NCBI GenBank assembly: GCA_017516005.1
Contig: JAFWDU010000007.1
Span: 1 to 64,000, forward strand
Reading direction: 5' to 3'
DNA from: Oscillospiraceae bacterium
Lineage (GTDB): Bacteria > Bacillota > Clostridia > Oscillospirales > Oscillospiraceae
Length of the DNA: 64,000 nt
The notes under the pieces are model-generated. The model made no database searches. It worked only from the letters and a program-made list of their open reading frames with translations, and had not been told where the DNA came from. Positions 1,743 to 8,992 of this stretch are shown here, piece after piece (positions within the stretch are counted from its first letter, which is position 1; each line of letters starts with the position of its first letter). Made by a program: the position numbers and the translations under genes.

Positions 1743-2228
1743 TCAGTCGTCGAACACTTTATTATTCAGTTCCTGCATGTTGTCCAGCATAATTTCAAGT
1801 GACGCAATTGCGATCTCACGCTGCTCCTGAGGGATTCCACGAAGAAGATATTCTTCAATTCGCTCCTTGTTGTGCCGGGAACGGTAATGCACCATTTTTG
1901 CTTGATCGGTGACGCAAACGGATTTGTATCGGTGATCCTTCTCGCTTTCCTGTTTGATCACAAACCCTTTCTGTTCCAGACGCTTCAGAATGCCTGTCAC
2001 AGTCGGGTTGGAAAGATGCATTTCCCGTTCAATATCCACCTGGTTGATCTCAACACCGCGTGATTGGGCAAAATTGACATACTGCAGCACATCTGTCTGA
2101 ACTGCTGTCAGTCCATATTCTGCCAGGTAACGGTTGCGTTCCTTCTCAATTGCAAGATTGATGCTTTTCGTGAGAAGTCCGACTTTTTCCGCCTGGGTCA
2201 TTGTCTGATATCCGGAAACCTGATTCAT
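1743..2228 (-). CDS. MarR family transcriptional regulator
   Basis: A 161-residue winged-helix DNA-binding protein. The central segment shows the MarR pattern: a helix-turn-helix (VDIEREMHLSNPTVTGILKR) followed by the wing (LEQKGFVIKQESEKDHRYKSV). MarR proteins are usually dimeric repressors that respond to phenolic or other small ligands. The start was placed at the ATG at 2228 because GGAGG lies seven bases before it; a longer frame upstream has no such site. A good promoter (TTGCGT, 17 bases, TATAAT) lies at 2285-2313. No neighbour is an obvious target: gltX converges and the oxidoreductase diverges 0.48 kb away. The ligand is unknown. Confidence 0.9.
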   Translation of the reverse strand: MNQVSGYQTMTQAEKVGLLTKSINLAIEKERNRYLAEYGLTAVQTDVLQYVNFAQSRGVEINQVDIEREMHLSNPTVTGILKRLEQKGFVIKQESEKDHRYKSVCVTDQAKMVHYRSRHNKERIEEYLLRGIPQEQREIAIASLEIMLDNMQELNNKVFDD

Positions 2229-2284
2229 CGCAATTCCTCCACAATCTCCAGCGAATAAACACATTGTCCATTTAAGTATTGATT

Positions 2285-2313: not shown

Positions 2314-2612
2314 TCAACAAAAACACATTAATCCACATTCTGTCTTTCGTTCGGAAGAATTGCGGCAAATGTCAGCTACATAAGGAACACGCAGGATATT
2401 CCTTCCCACTTGTCTATCCGCAAAATAACGGAATACAGCGCCGCATCAACTGCTGAAACTCCCGCATGTATTGTCGAACTGACCGTCCGGCAAATCAACG
2501 CAGAGAAAGCCCGCAGAATGCGGGTGTGCAAAGTGTTTGCGTGCTGTCTGCTTCCATTTTTCTTGAAAAAATGCTGAAACCCTGATTGAGACAACGAGAT
2601 CAGAATCCACAA

Positions 2613-2642
2613 ATTGTCCATCTGAATCTTCATATTCTCTGT
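2613..2642 (+). promoter_or_regulatory. putative AraC-type activator site at gfo promoter
   Basis: Two related nonamers, ATTGTCCAT at 2613 and ATTCTCTGT at 2634, begin 21 bases apart, and the second shares its last base with the -35 box. The araC promoter 1.6 kb to the right has the same arrangement (TTTATCCAT and TTTGTCCAT). This spacing of two helical turns is typical of direct-repeat sites for AraC family activators. Binding is inferred. Confidence 0.45.
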
Positions 2643-2670
2643 TGCATGGATTTACCGCATCATCTATACT
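2642..2670 (+). promoter_or_regulatory. promoter of the Gfo/Idh/MocA gene
   Basis: -35 TTGCAT (2642-2647), a 17-base spacer, -10 TATACT (2665-2670). A second -10-like TATAAT lies at 2680. The leader is short, about 28 bases. Confidence 0.6.
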
Positions 2671-2704
2671 GATACTATCTATAATTGTAGAAAGGATGAA
2701 CACC

Positions 2705-3964
2705 ATGCAAGAATTACGTGTCGCAATCATTGGTACTGGCACGATTTCCAACCGCCACATGAAGGTGTGGGGAAATATCCCTCAGGTGAAGGTCGTCGCC
2801 GCTGCCGAAATCAATGAGCCCAAGCTGAAGGCATGGGGCGAGCGCTATCATTTCAACGAGAAGGATCTCTACACTGATTTCCGTGAGATGCTGAAGCGCG
2901 ATGACATTGACGCTGTGGATGTTTGCGTGCATAACAATCTGCACACTCCCGTGTCTATGTATGTCATGAAAGCAGGATATCCCTGCTACTCCGAGAAGCC
3001 CATGAGCGCCAGCTACTTCGACTCCAAGCTCCTGTATGACTGTGCGAAGGCCACCGGTCAGAAGCTGGCTATCCAGATCAGCTCCCTGTACTCTGCACAG
3101 ACCTACATCGCAAAGCAGGTTCTGAATGCCGGTAAACTGGGCAATGTCTACCATGCCCGTATGGCAACTGCCTCCCATCGCCGCAGAAATGCAGTGGACC
3201 GCGCCGCTCTGTTCTCCTCTCCCGACTTCCGTGATGCTTACATGGCGGGTCATGGACAGATTGTCGATCTGGGTATTTATCACTTCGGCCAGATGCTTTA
3301 TCTTCTGGGCCTGCCTGAACTGGACAGTGTTCTGGGCAAGCTGCACCAGGGTGTTGAAATGCCCAATGAGGAGTGGGCAAAGAGCCATCCCATGACTGTT
3401 GAGGATATGGGCGTCGGTTTTGCAACCTTTAAGAACGGCCTGTCTCTGGAACTTCAGGAGGCATCTGCCGTAAACAAAGACGATCACATGGATCATCACA
3501 TTCTGGGCTCCAAGGGCGGTCTGTACTGGGGCATGACCGACGACTTCGGCGGCGACTGGTCCATGGGCGGCGGCGGTGGCCCGATGGGCGGCGGCGGACT
3601 GCCCGGTCCTCTGCAGCCTCAGCTGTACTATCGCGGCCAGGACGAGTTCGGCTACGATGTTACGATTGACTACCACGCTTATGAGAATCAGCAGGATCTG
3701 AAAACCTACAAGCCCGAGATGATGCAGTGGTTCGATAATCAGCTTCACTGGTACAATTACCTGACCGGCAAGCTGACCGACGAAACCAGATACAATACGC
3801 CTCTCATCGGTCTGAACGTCAGCCTTCTCACCGACGGCCTGGTCCTCTCTGCTGAGATGGGCCGTGCTGTCACTGCGGACGAAATCAAAGTAAACTCCAA
3901 GTCTCTCGCCATCTGGAAGCAGGAGACTCCGTGGGGTGTCTTCGATTACGACGCGAGCCTGTAA
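2705..3964 (+). CDS. Gfo/Idh/MocA family oxidoreductase
   Basis: A 419-residue NAD(P)-dependent sugar or cyclitol dehydrogenase of the glucose-fructose oxidoreductase / inositol dehydrogenase family. The Rossmann fold begins at residue 5 (VAIIGTGTISNRH), the EKP signature is at 97-99 (SEKPMS), and the motif DLGIYHFGQ at 188-196 supplies the Asp and His expected in the active site. Residues 282-302 form an unusual glycine-rich loop (SMGGGGGPMGGGG). The start at 2705 was chosen because AAAGGA lies eight bases upstream; the in-frame ATG at 2696 overlaps that site and a longer frame would start inside the promoter. The substrate is not known. It is a single-gene unit followed by a terminator, and its promoter shares repeat elements with the downstream araC gene, so the two are probably functionally linked. 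Confidence 0.93.
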   Translation: MQELRVAIIGTGTISNRHMKVWGNIPQVKVVAAAEINEPKLKAWGERYHFNEKDLYTDFREMLKRDDIDAVDVCVHNNLHTPVSMYVMKAGYPCYSEKPMSASYFDSKLLYDCAKATGQKLAIQISSLYSAQTYIAKQVLNAGKLGNVYHARMATASHRRRNAVDRAALFSSPDFRDAYMAGHGQIVDLGIYHFGQMLYLLGLPELDSVLGKLHQGVEMPNEEWAKSHPMTVEDMGVGFATFKNGLSLELQEASAVNKDDHMDHHILGSKGGLYWGMTDDFGGDWSMGGGGGPMGGGGLPGPLQPQLYYRGQDEFGYDVTIDYHAYENQQDLKTYKPEMMQWFDNQLHWYNYLTGKLTDETRYNTPLIGLNVSLLTDGLVLSAEMGRAVTADEIKVNSKSLAIWKQETPWGVFDYDASL

Positions 3965-3980
3965 GCTTTCCTAGTCTCCT

Positions 3981-4012
3981 GGCACCCTGGCAGCCCGCCG
4001 GGGTGCCTTTTT
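3981..4012 (+). terminator. rho-independent terminator after gfo
   Basis: GGCACCC, a 13-base loop, GGGTGCC and TTTTT, 16 bases after the gfo stop codon. Confidence 0.88.
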
Positions 4013-4200
4013 CATACCACCTGCGTTTTGTTTAGCTTCTCTCTTTTTCTTGCGCCATCATGAACGCCGATCTGTATTCTATTCATGCTAAGCATAGTTG
4101 ATATATTTCCATTTTTATAGACATTTTTCGGACAGATACAGTGAATAAAGCATGCGAATATTTCTCGTATCATTCCACTTTGCATCATTCAATTCTGCGA

Positions 4201-4250
4201 ATTCTCCATGTTATCTTCATTTTATCCATCACAATCATCGTTTTGTCCAT
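4201..4250 (+). promoter_or_regulatory. phased direct repeats upstream of araC promoter
   Basis: Three related nonamers, ATTCTCCAT (4201), TTTATCCAT (4221) and TTTGTCCAT (4242), lie 20 and 21 bases apart on the same face of the helix. The last one overlaps the -35 box by one base. This is the layout of an AraC family activator site and matches the one at the gfo promoter. The simplest reading is that the AraC protein encoded just downstream activates its own gene and gfo. Confidence 0.5.
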
Positions 4251-4278
4251 TGTGCCGTTTTCTGCTGTAGGATATTGT
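4250..4278 (+). promoter_or_regulatory. promoter of the AraC gene
   Basis: -35 TTGTGC (4250-4255), 17-base spacer, -10 TATTGT (4273-4278). The boxes are imperfect, as expected for a promoter that needs an activator. Confidence 0.5.
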
Positions 4279-4323: not shown

Positions 4324-5106
4324 ATGAAAATCACAACTCTGAACGGGCCGAAGGGTATGTACTTTCAGCCGGAAGAGATTCACGATCATTGTGAAATCCT
4401 TCTTCGCAAAGAGGGCAGCGGCATCCTGACCATCGAGGGACAGGAAACTGTTGTCAGTGCCGGAAGTATCGCGTACATTCCCGCTGGCGTCCGTCATTCT
4501 GATCAGGCGCTTGAACCCTCCCGTAACGGGCACCTGACATTCGCTCCTGTTTCCAGTCTTCCATCTTCCTTCCGGCTCCTCCACGATGAGGATCATCGGT
4601 TTGAGCAGGTATTCGATCTGGCTGCCGACGCAATGCTTCAGGCTGGTTTGAACAGTCATTATCTCCAATCGGACAACGCTTCTCCCGAAGGCAGAAACCA
4701 CCTGGCTTTTGCCTACTCACTGGGAGATACCCTGTTTCTTCTTCTGCAAAACTGGTGTGACACGCTTCAGCCGGAAGCCAACAGTGCAGTTGAAACGATC
4801 GATCGGCAGATCCGCCTTCGCTTTGCGGAGGCTGACTTTGATCTGACTGCAGAGATCGCCAGAACCGGATACTCGGTCGGCTATTTCCGTTCCATTTTCC
4901 GTGATCAGATCGGCCGTCCTCCACAGGCGCAGCTGAATCACATCCGAGTCGAATACGCCAAAAGCCAGATGCAGATTTATCAGGATGCAGTCCCCATCAA
5001 AATCATCAGCGCGAATGCCGGTTTTGTGGATCCCTATTACTTTTCCCGGCTGTTCAAACAGATGGTCGGTGTATCCCCCAGGGAATATCTCGCATCTCTT
5101 CACTAG
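4324..5106 (+). CDS. AraC family transcriptional regulator
   Basis: A 260-residue regulator with an N-terminal cupin-like sensor domain (residues 1-90, with the metal- or ligand-binding pattern HDHCEI at 20-25) and a C-terminal AraC-type double helix-turn-helix domain (about residues 160-258, ending in FKQMVGVSPREYL). Such proteins usually bind a sugar and activate catabolic genes. GGGAGG lies seven bases before the ATG at 4324; an ATG five codons upstream overlaps this site and was rejected. Because the same repeat elements precede this gene and the gfo oxidoreductase, I infer that it controls both. The ligand is unknown. Confidence 0.93.
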   Translation: MKITTLNGPKGMYFQPEEIHDHCEILLRKEGSGILTIEGQETVVSAGSIAYIPAGVRHSDQALEPSRNGHLTFAPVSSLPSSFRLLHDEDHRFEQVFDLAADAMLQAGLNSHYLQSDNASPEGRNHLAFAYSLGDTLFLLLQNWCDTLQPEANSAVETIDRQIRLRFAEADFDLTAEIARTGYSVGYFRSIFRDQIGRPPQAQLNHIRVEYAKSQMQIYQDAVPIKIISANAGFVDPYYFSRLFKQMVGVSPREYLASLH

Positions 5107-6851: not shown

Positions 6852-8159
6852 ATGTTCCAGGTATTCAGCCGCGATCTGGTGCAGCTCACACCGCTTCTGC
6901 TGCAGCTTGCCGGATTGACCTTTGCCGTTCTGATCGATCCATACATTCAAAAAGCGCACAGACGGAATATGCTCCTGATTATTTTCGTAATGCTGACTCT
7001 GATTGCACAGAACGCACTGGACTATTATTTTACGGATTATGAGTTTCTCCGCCTTGCCAGAACGATTGTGGCTGTTTACGGATACAGCTTCCGTCCGCTG
7101 GTCATTGTGCTGTTTTTCCGCTGCACCACCGGCAAACGGGTACATTCTTCAGCCTGGGTTCTTTTGGGAATCAACGCAGCCGTTCATCTTACTGCCTTCT
7201 TTTCCGACATCTGTTTTTCTTTTTATTCCGATGGTACCTTTGTTCGAGGCCCGCTTGGTTTCACATCGCACATTGTCAGCGGAATTCTGCTCGTCCAGCT
7301 GGCGTACCGCAGCATTCAGGAACACCACCGAATCCGTCGATCCATCGCATGGATGCCACTGTTCTGCATTGTGTTAATTGTCGCCGGCATCATCGCTGAT
7401 ACCTTCATGCCAGTCTTCTATGACAGAAGCGTCAATGCATTGACCATGTCCACAGTTACCTGCTGCGTGTTTTACTACATCTGGCTTCACCTTCTTTTTG
7501 TTCTGAACCATGAGCAAGCATTGATTGAAGAACAGCACATCCAGATTATGATTTCCCAGATTCAGCCTCATTTTCTCTTTAATACACTTTCAACCATTCA
7601 GGCGCTCTGCCGGACCGACCCCGAACAGGCAGCGCAGGTCACGGAGAAGTTCGGCACTTATCTGCGGCAGAACATCAGTTCCTTGAATCAGCCAAACCTG
7701 ATTCCTCTGGAGAAAGAACTTCAGCACACCAAAGCCTACGCGGAAATTGAAATGATCCGCTTCCCAAACATTCAGGTGGAATATGACATTCAGGACAGTG
7801 ACTTTTCACTCCCCGCTCTGACGATTCAGCCCATGGTTGAAAACGCCATCCGCCACGGCGTACGCAGCAAAGAAGAAGGCATTGTACGCGTCTCAACACG
7901 TAAAACGGATCTCTGGCATGAGATTCTCATTTCAGACAACGGCGTCGGTTTTGACACCAGTCTTCCTATTCCCGCCACAAAAGATGCCCATATTGGTCTG
8001 CGTAATGTCCGGGAACGGATTAAAACTCTCTGCGGCGGATCGGTTGCAATCAGCAGTCGCCCGAACGAGGGCACTGACATTACCATTCGAATTCCGCTTG
8101 CAAAAGATCTGACCCGTCAAACGACTGGCGGCACTGCTCCTGAAAGGAGTGAGGCGTAA
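6852..8159 (+). CDS. sensor histidine kinase, LytS/YesM type
   Basis: A 435-residue membrane kinase. The first 215 residues hold about six to seven hydrophobic helices and no recognisable extracellular sensor. The His_kinase domain of the LytS/YesM group follows, with the phospho-accepting histidine at residue 240 in QIQPHFLFNTL. The ATPase domain shows the N box (PMVENAIRHGV) and the G1 box (ISDNGVGFD). GGAGGGAG lies just upstream of the ATG. The stop codon overlaps the start of the response regulator gene (TAATG), so the two are translationally coupled. The signal is unknown; quorum peptides, membrane state or small metabolites are typical for this class. Confidence 0.93.
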   Translation: MFQVFSRDLVQLTPLLLQLAGLTFAVLIDPYIQKAHRRNMLLIIFVMLTLIAQNALDYYFTDYEFLRLARTIVAVYGYSFRPLVIVLFFRCTTGKRVHSSAWVLLGINAAVHLTAFFSDICFSFYSDGTFVRGPLGFTSHIVSGILLVQLAYRSIQEHHRIRRSIAWMPLFCIVLIVAGIIADTFMPVFYDRSVNALTMSTVTCCVFYYIWLHLLFVLNHEQALIEEQHIQIMISQIQPHFLFNTLSTIQALCRTDPEQAAQVTEKFGTYLRQNISSLNQPNLIPLEKELQHTKAYAEIEMIRFPNIQVEYDIQDSDFSLPALTIQPMVENAIRHGVRSKEEGIVRVSTRKTDLWHEILISDNGVGFDTSLPIPATKDAHIGLRNVRERIKTLCGGSVAISSRPNEGTDITIRIPLAKDLTRQTTGGTAPERSEA

Positions 8160-8992
8160 TGACCATTCTATGTGTGGATGACGAACAGCTTGTTCTTGAT
8201 CATACACTTTCGCTCTGCCGAGAACTACCGCAGAAGCTGGATGCCGTCGGCTTTCTATCCGCTGAGGAAGCGCTTGTCTGGCTGGAGAACCACAAACCGG
8301 ACCTTGCTCTGTTGGATCTCAATCTGCCAAAAATGGACGGGCTTCTGCTCGCGTCGAAACTGAAAGAACACGATCCTGACACCCGGGTCATTTTTATGAC
8401 AGGTTATTCCCGATTTGTTGCACAATCCTCTCAGGTCCATGTTCCCGGTTATCTGCTCAAGCCAGTTGGATCCTCCCAACTGGAAGAGGCGATTGATTCC
8501 ACACTCTCCCATACAGGTCAGGAGAATCTACCATGTGCACATCTTTATTTCCGTACCTTCGGCTCGTTCGATTTATTAAAGGATGGTGTACCGGTATCGT
8601 TTCCCAGCGTACAGTCAAAAGAACTTTTAGCCCTTCTGATCCACCGGCTGGGCGGAAGCATATCCTACGCCGAAGCATTCCGTTTTCTCTTCCACACGGC
8701 CAATTACAGCGGACTGCTGCAGCATATACAACTGCGCAAGGTAATCCACAGCCTGCGCGCTGTTCTGAAAAGCTGCGGTGCCGGGAAGGCGCTTGAAGCT
8801 CCTGGCAACACACTCCGTATTCGGCCCTCTGATCTTTCCTGTGATCTGTTCCGATTTGTGGAGGGTGACGTTGCTGCAGTGAACTGCTATCGCGGCATCT
8901 ATATGGCGCCTTATCCCTGGGCGCATTTCGCGGAAGCATACGAGTACCGCAGAACAGGGATGGTTCGTTCTCCGCTGCGTGCTTCTTTGTAA
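8159..8992 (+). CDS. response regulator with SARP-type winged helix
   Basis: A 277-residue regulator. The receiver domain (1-120) has the acidic pair D7-D8, the phosphorylated aspartate D53 (LLDLNLPKMDG), T81 and K101. The C-terminal part starts at about residue 127 with the pattern LYFRTFGSFDLLKDG and KELLALLIHRLGG, which resembles the OmpR-like winged helix of SARP regulators. After that only some 55 residues remain, so the bacterial transcriptional activator (BTAD) domain usual in SARPs is short or missing. It is coupled to the LytS-like kinase; partners of such kinases normally carry a LytTR or AraC output domain, which makes this pair unusual. Target genes are unknown. Confidence 0.85.
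   Translation: MTILCVDDEQLVLDHTLSLCRELPQKLDAVGFLSAEEALVWLENHKPDLALLDLNLPKMDGLLLASKLKEHDPDTRVIFMTGYSRFVAQSSQVHVPGYLLKPVGSSQLEEAIDSTLSHTGQENLPCAHLYFRTFGSFDLLKDGVPVSFPSVQSKELLALLIHRLGGSISYAEAFRFLFHTANYSGLLQHIQLRKVIHSLRAVLKSCGAGKALEAPGNTLRIRPSDLSCDLFRFVEGDVAAVNCYRGIYMAPYPWAHFAEAYEYRRTGMVRSPLRASL

Follow-up and report, generated by a model that had tools for sequence, protein, structure and literature searches.

Tandem repeats in front of a putative glycoside oxidase gene and the neighbouring araC-family gene as candidate operators of the AraC-family protein

Two neighbouring genes, encoding a Gfo/Idh/MocA oxidoreductase (gfo) and an AraC-family regulator (araC), are preceded by the same repeated sequence in the same position relative to the promoter. 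Which protein is likely to read these repeats, and with what effect on the two genes? We consider it about 80% probable that the AraC-family protein itself uses the repeats as its operators, i.e. that it is a local, self-regulating activator of gfo and of glycoside oxidation, where binding, activation and the inducer are what we infer. The analysis covers a window of 64,000 nt (the whole stretch of DNA studied here), the 945,943-base assembly that contains it, and genomes of relatives.

The repeat arrays in front of gfo and araC

The genes and their core promoters are arranged as follows.
2642..2670, plus strand: gfo core promoter, TTGCAT (2642-2647), 17 bp, TATACT (2665-2670); assigned by eye and scored, -35 3/6, -10 5/6
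2705..3964, plus strand: gfo, Gfo/Idh/MocA oxidoreductase, 419 aa
3981..4007, plus strand: terminator-like hairpin between gfo and araC
4250..4278, plus strand: araC core promoter, TTGTGC (4250-4255), 17 bp, TATTGT (4273-4278); assigned by eye and scored, -35 3/6, -10 4/6
4324..5106, plus strand: araC-family regulator, 260 aa, with a cupin/AraC_binding N-terminal domain and a double helix-turn-helix (HTH)

The hairpin separates gfo and araC, so that araC needs a promoter of its own. In front of gfo the 9-mers ATTGTCCAT (2613-2621) and ATTCTCTGT (2634-2642) lie head-to-tail with a start-to-start spacing of 21 bp. The araC gene has three, ATTCTCCAT (4201-4209), TTTATCCAT (4221-4229) and TTTGTCCAT (4242-4250), with spacings of 20 and then 21 bp. 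At both genes the -35 box starts 29 nt after the start of the distal 9-mer and 8 nt after that of the proximal one, and the predicted -35 box begins on the final base of the proximal copy. An earlier, sequence-only reading had claimed these repeats, their coordinates and spacings, and a common register at the two promoters; all of this is confirmed in the letters.

The 9-mer is the downstream half of a longer element. On alignment of six copies, nine further conserved columns are seen on its 5′ side (two A/T, T, mostly C, two free, C in 6/6, a purine and one free), giving a full element of 18 bp that is roughly WWTC-NNC-R-N-WTTNTCCAT. The half-sites at the two promoters are:
2604..2621, plus strand: gfo distal half-site AATCCACAAATTGTCCAT; leave-one-out rank 5 of 127,966, match to the exact 18-bp pattern
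2625..2642, plus strand: gfo proximal half-site AATCTTCATATTCTCTGT; leave-one-out rank 6, 21 bp 3′ of the distal copy
4192..4209, plus strand: araC third, most upstream half-site ATTCTGCGAATTCTCCAT; spacing 20, found by the matrix and the exact 18-bp pattern
4212..4229, plus strand: araC distal half-site TATCTTCATTTTATCCAT; found by the matrix and the exact 18-bp pattern
4233..4250, plus strand: araC proximal half-site AATCATCGTTTTGTCCAT; last base common to the -35 box, found by the matrix and the exact 18-bp pattern

Thus two-box half-sites in direct repeat with a period of about 21 bp are present at gfo and araC, and in each case the proximal half-site lies at or over the predicted -35 box of the target.

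The 9-mer WTTNTCCAT occurs 14 times in the window compared with 5.65 expected, a number reached in 0/100 shuffles, and five of the 14 matches are sites named in this study. The sequence-only reading had suggested a genome scan for pairs spaced by 21 bp. With the second copy relaxed to end in YRT (fitted to gfo), the pair has two matches in the whole 945,943-base assembly, at the gfo and araC promoters, and none elsewhere in the 946 kb. The reversed pair has no match in the assembly. An 18-column matrix was trained on the five gfo and araC sites, leaving a further copy in the marR leader out of training. The five training sites are its top five in the window, and on leaving out each in turn they rank 5 to 7 among 127,966 window positions. 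The nine upstream columns contain 9.93 bits, compared with 3.95 ± 0.96 in random intergenic sets, of which 0/20000 reach 9.93. The exact 18-bp pattern has seven matches in 946 kb, five of them inside the 2-kb marR-gfo-araC stretch; since it was derived from these sites this demonstrates their rarity only and is no independent support.

When one mismatch is allowed there are 46 matches in the own genome and 62 in that of a congener (G001), most of them without a promoter in register, and we do not claim a genome-wide regulon from this pattern. Three of the 46 are in register, two being the discovery sites and the third, at an rpmG-secE-like promoter, probably a chance match. In this assembly, which is 70% complete, we see a regulon of gfo and araC, with marR as a possible third member.

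The similarity between the regions upstream of gfo and araC is limited to the array and core promoter, so that it is not the leftover of a recent promoter duplication. We have rejected such a duplication as the cause of the likeness; the flanks outside the array are unrelated.

The regulator and the proposed switch

The regulator has the two domains of an AraC-family protein. The C-terminal double HTH scores 54.1 bits with HTH_18 (cut-off 33.6) and 45.8 bits with HTH_AraC (cut-off 26.6), and the N-terminal effector domain scores 30.1 bits with AraC_binding (cut-off 21.1) and 32.4 bits with Cupin_2 (cut-off 27.2). Its best match among solved proteins is the DNA-binding domain of E. coli AraC. 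The NCBIfam equivalog cut-offs are not reached for RhaS (47.8 of 288 bits), AraC (40.8 of 208 bits) or RhaR (36.6 of 363 bits). No closer relatives were found in the contigs of the genome or, at E 1e-20, in 390 other genomes of the class; homologues are present in 5/299 other genomes of the family at E 1e-15.

In the mechanism that we propose, each helix-turn-helix of a DNA-binding domain would read one of the two boxes of an 18-bp half-site (approximately WWTC and TCCAT, roughly one turn apart), and an AraC dimer would read two half-sites in 21-bp direct repeat. As the proximal half-site directly adjoins a weak -35 box, the dimer would be placed to touch RNA polymerase. With the cupin domain in its active state the dimer would switch on gfo and araC itself, the inducing signal perhaps being a glycoside or a 3-oxo-sugar. 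The repeat design fits AraC-family dimers and recurs beside araC homologues and a gfo orthologue (see below), so that co-regulation of gfo and araC by the AraC protein is well supported by the sequence. The sequence-only reading had the protein activating both its own gene and gfo. The co-regulation in that claim stands; for activation rather than repression we infer from position, the weak -35 boxes and precedent.

The -35 hexamers of gfo and araC both match TTGACA at only 3/6 positions, and neither promoter was listed by a generic promoter scan of the window. This bears on whether the same protein might instead bind the repeats mainly as a repressor of both promoters until an inducer lifts the repression. 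Autorepression is common for regulators, a proximal half-site abutting the -35 box could block polymerase, and the site in the marR leader is downstream of the presumed marR start (by eye), a repressor-like place. Against this, such poor -35 boxes are expected of activator-dependent promoters, and AraC-family proteins with tandem sites upstream of a promoter are read as activators in the available excerpt of PMC8579813. We regard a mainly repressive role as improbable, and activation of gfo and araC by the AraC protein is the reading that we prefer.

The sequence-only reading had also extended the regulon to the marR-family gene on the other side of gfo, where the following features were noted.
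1743..2228, minus strand: marR-family gene, possible third target; start by eye, the open reading frame extends to 2264
2254..2271, plus strand: candidate single half-site in the marR leader, AATAAACACATTGTCCAT; held-out rank 7 of 127,966, p 0.005 per 300 bp
2330..2347, plus strand: weak candidate half-site in the same marR-gfo intergenic region, AATCCACATTCTGTCTTT; score 13.8, p 0.016 per 300 bp, may be chance

The 9-mer in the leader (2263-2271) is ATTGTCCAT, identical to the gfo distal 9-mer. The half-site has the same orientation as the gfo distal copy and precedes it by 350 bp. It is just downstream of a TATAAT on the minus strand (2284-2289, by eye). The extension to marR is plausible from the held-out rank of the copy, but this is a lone half-site, in a position unsuited to activating marR. 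By its place the copy would be a downstream or remote site with a repressor or looping role, if it is functional at all.

Occurrence of the site in related genomes

If the AraC protein reads these repeats, the site might be expected to travel with the regulator. Comparison within the genus rests on the one genome G001, which has an AraC homologue (35% identical) and a gfo orthologue (83% identical). The 300 bp upstream of the AraC homologue contain a matrix site, AATGAGCGATTTGTCCAT, with a score of 18.5 that is reached by 0/372 window stretches. The site faces a divergent gene on the side away from araC, whose product has a CGDB (C-glycoside deglycosidase beta subunit, PF19906) domain, and the TTGCAA-17-TATACT promoter of that gene follows the site at exactly 29 nt; the site may serve this gene rather than the araC homologue. 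The gfo orthologue has a site with a score of 15.7 (p 0.011), and here too the -35 box of the gene follows at 29 nt. In both of these sites the distal half-site is good and the proximal one weak. A promoter at offset 29 is found for three of the 62 one-mismatch matches in G001, compared with a mean of 0.72; this is equalled at 7/180 other offsets, so that the register alone is not strong there. One of the three precedes a MarR-type gene. A second CGDB gene of G001 (contig C26) has TTTCTCCAG 29 nt before a strong promoter; its matrix score is only 7.2 and it was not counted.

No matrix site was found at the gfo orthologue of a sheep metagenome-assembled genome (L024, 82% identical) or at the gfo homologue of L026 (62%), and neither genome has an AraC homologue at E 1e-12. 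The joint absence of site and regulator in the L024 genome fits a shared operator, in a comparison with a single congener as the positive case. Homologues of gfo with 62%, 70% and 47-48% identity have no site by the matrix. In L024 the sequence ATTATCCTT is in the register of the proximal copy by eye; the matrix gives nothing there and it was not counted. Upstream of orthologous genes the site is thus seen at gfo and in the araC-homologue region of G001, the one such relative with the regulator, and in the L024 genome it is absent together with the regulator; the remoter gfo homologues are without it.

A shorter box, TTTGTCYAT, is found 65-86 bp before the araC start in the own genome, G001, G180 and G171, i.e. 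in 4/6 genomes with a homologue. With the own genome left out this is 3/5, each at a chance of about 0.2-1.2%, for a box that was picked after inspecting the same upstream regions. Of the four more distant homologues, two (G180 and G171) have the box upstream, forming an inverted pair in G171, and it is absent upstream of those in G267 and G077. The full matrix gives p 0.06-0.95 on these four upstream regions, which is not significant, and TTTGTCYAT is all that is common. We also note an inverted pair, TTTTGTCTAT and TTTTGTCCAT, that precedes the araC homologue of L006 by about 71-86 bp, adjoining ABC-transport ATPase and unsaturated-glycuronyl-hydrolase-like genes (names by eye). Elsewhere in G001 (L021:5806-8178, contig C44) an AraC-type regulator (cupin and HTH_18) is fused to a family 39 glycoside hydrolase domain.

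Some response regulators and SARPs also typically bind tandem repeats that overlap the -35 box, and another regulator of this kind might bind here. The window has a response regulator gene at 8159-8992, 3 kb away; its product has a receiver domain and, by eye, a SARP-like C-terminal part, and the gene adjoins a sensor-kinase-like gene at 6852-8159. Yet G001, which has the sites, matches this protein in its receiver region only (residues 25-120, E 1.9e-6), and the box accompanies araC homologues in other genera as well, making this very unlikely. That the arrays are functionless, short AT-rich repeats that happen to lie near promoters is very improbable, the sequence-only reading likewise having judged chance unlikely: single 9-mers are not very rare, but the pair is unique to the two promoters, the leave-one-out ranks are high, the upstream box is matched by no random set and the sites recur in the congener. 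We retain the AraC-family protein as the probable reader of the repeats.

Relation to known pathways and operators

The nearest solved relatives of Gfo are the C-glycoside oxidases DgpA1 and DgpA (E 1e-22 and 1e-21), the match to DgpA extending over residues 1-263 only. In the excerpt of PMC8563793, DgpA oxidises the sugar at C3 and the CGD complex then cuts the C-glycoside. From its sequence relationship Gfo is a putative DgpA-like oxidase of glycosides, and the site-bearing divergent gene of the congener has a CGDB domain. By contrast, Gfo is longer (419 compared with 367 aa), and gfo is not beside CGD genes in the region read. A second gfo paralogue of the own genome (G000:C6:11834-13087, 48% identical) is without the operator.

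There are 14 copies of CGDB in the own 946 kb assembly, nine of them on one contig (C22), and 25 in G001. In 147 other relatives searched there is at most one copy each, with a match in 7/147. The genus of these two genomes looks like a specialist for glycoside deglycosylation. On scanning upstream of all 14 own CGDB genes (one region, L173, being of only 112 bases at a contig end) no strong site was found, the best scoring 14.3 on the opposite strand. A literature search returned no transcriptional regulator described for the C-glycoside deglycosylation pathway. It is tempting to join these observations, such that no regulator of glycoside 3-oxidation and C-deglycosylation would have been described before this AraC protein, from a genus with multiplied CGDB (14 and 25 copies), and the lone marR-leader half-site would be an araO2-like remote looping site through which marR, gfo and araC form a single switch. 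We think this combination unlikely.

The gfo and araC arrays resemble the sites of E. coli AraC in their weaker proximal copy and in the autoregulation that we propose. The E. coli operator, TAGC-N7-TCCATA, likewise consists of directly repeated half-sites of two boxes next to a weak -35 box, with the TCCAT box in common (PMC4514859, in excerpt), and it is to the AraC DNA-binding domain that the window regulator is closest among solved proteins. By contrast, the upstream box here is WWTC and not TAGC, the overlap with the -35 box at gfo and araC is one base, the target is a Gfo/Idh/MocA oxidoreductase and not the arabinose enzymes, and the regulator is below the AraC equivalog cut-off (40.8 compared with 208 bits).

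Other members of the family provide further comparisons. In the same excerpt (PMC4514859) the printed repeat motifs of XylS and MekR add up to a 21-bp period, and the MtlR site, upstream of the -35 box, is at least 37 bp long. These share the direct repeats with gfo and araC, but have other box sequences and belong to other pathways. The AraC-family rhamnose regulators of Bacillales, Bacteroides and Enterococcus have direct repeats with 21-bp periodicity (excerpt of PMC3870299), with a different motif and pathway; no rhamnose genes were seen beside the gfo-araC locus. AraC-family tandem repeats upstream of promoter elements have been interpreted as activator sites (excerpt of PMC8579813). The statement of the sequence-only reading that AraC-family proteins bind such repeats beside the -35 box therefore agrees with these published operators.

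For an uncharacterised branch of the AraC family in uncultured gut and rumen clostridia, the finding provides a concrete operator with its sequence and spacing, and it would tie this branch to DgpA-like oxidases and C-glycoside deglycosidase genes. The link to C-glycoside metabolism is mildly interesting. As an operator the design is textbook, and the finding, ordinary in kind, adds a new and well-behaved case to a type of switch that is already well known.
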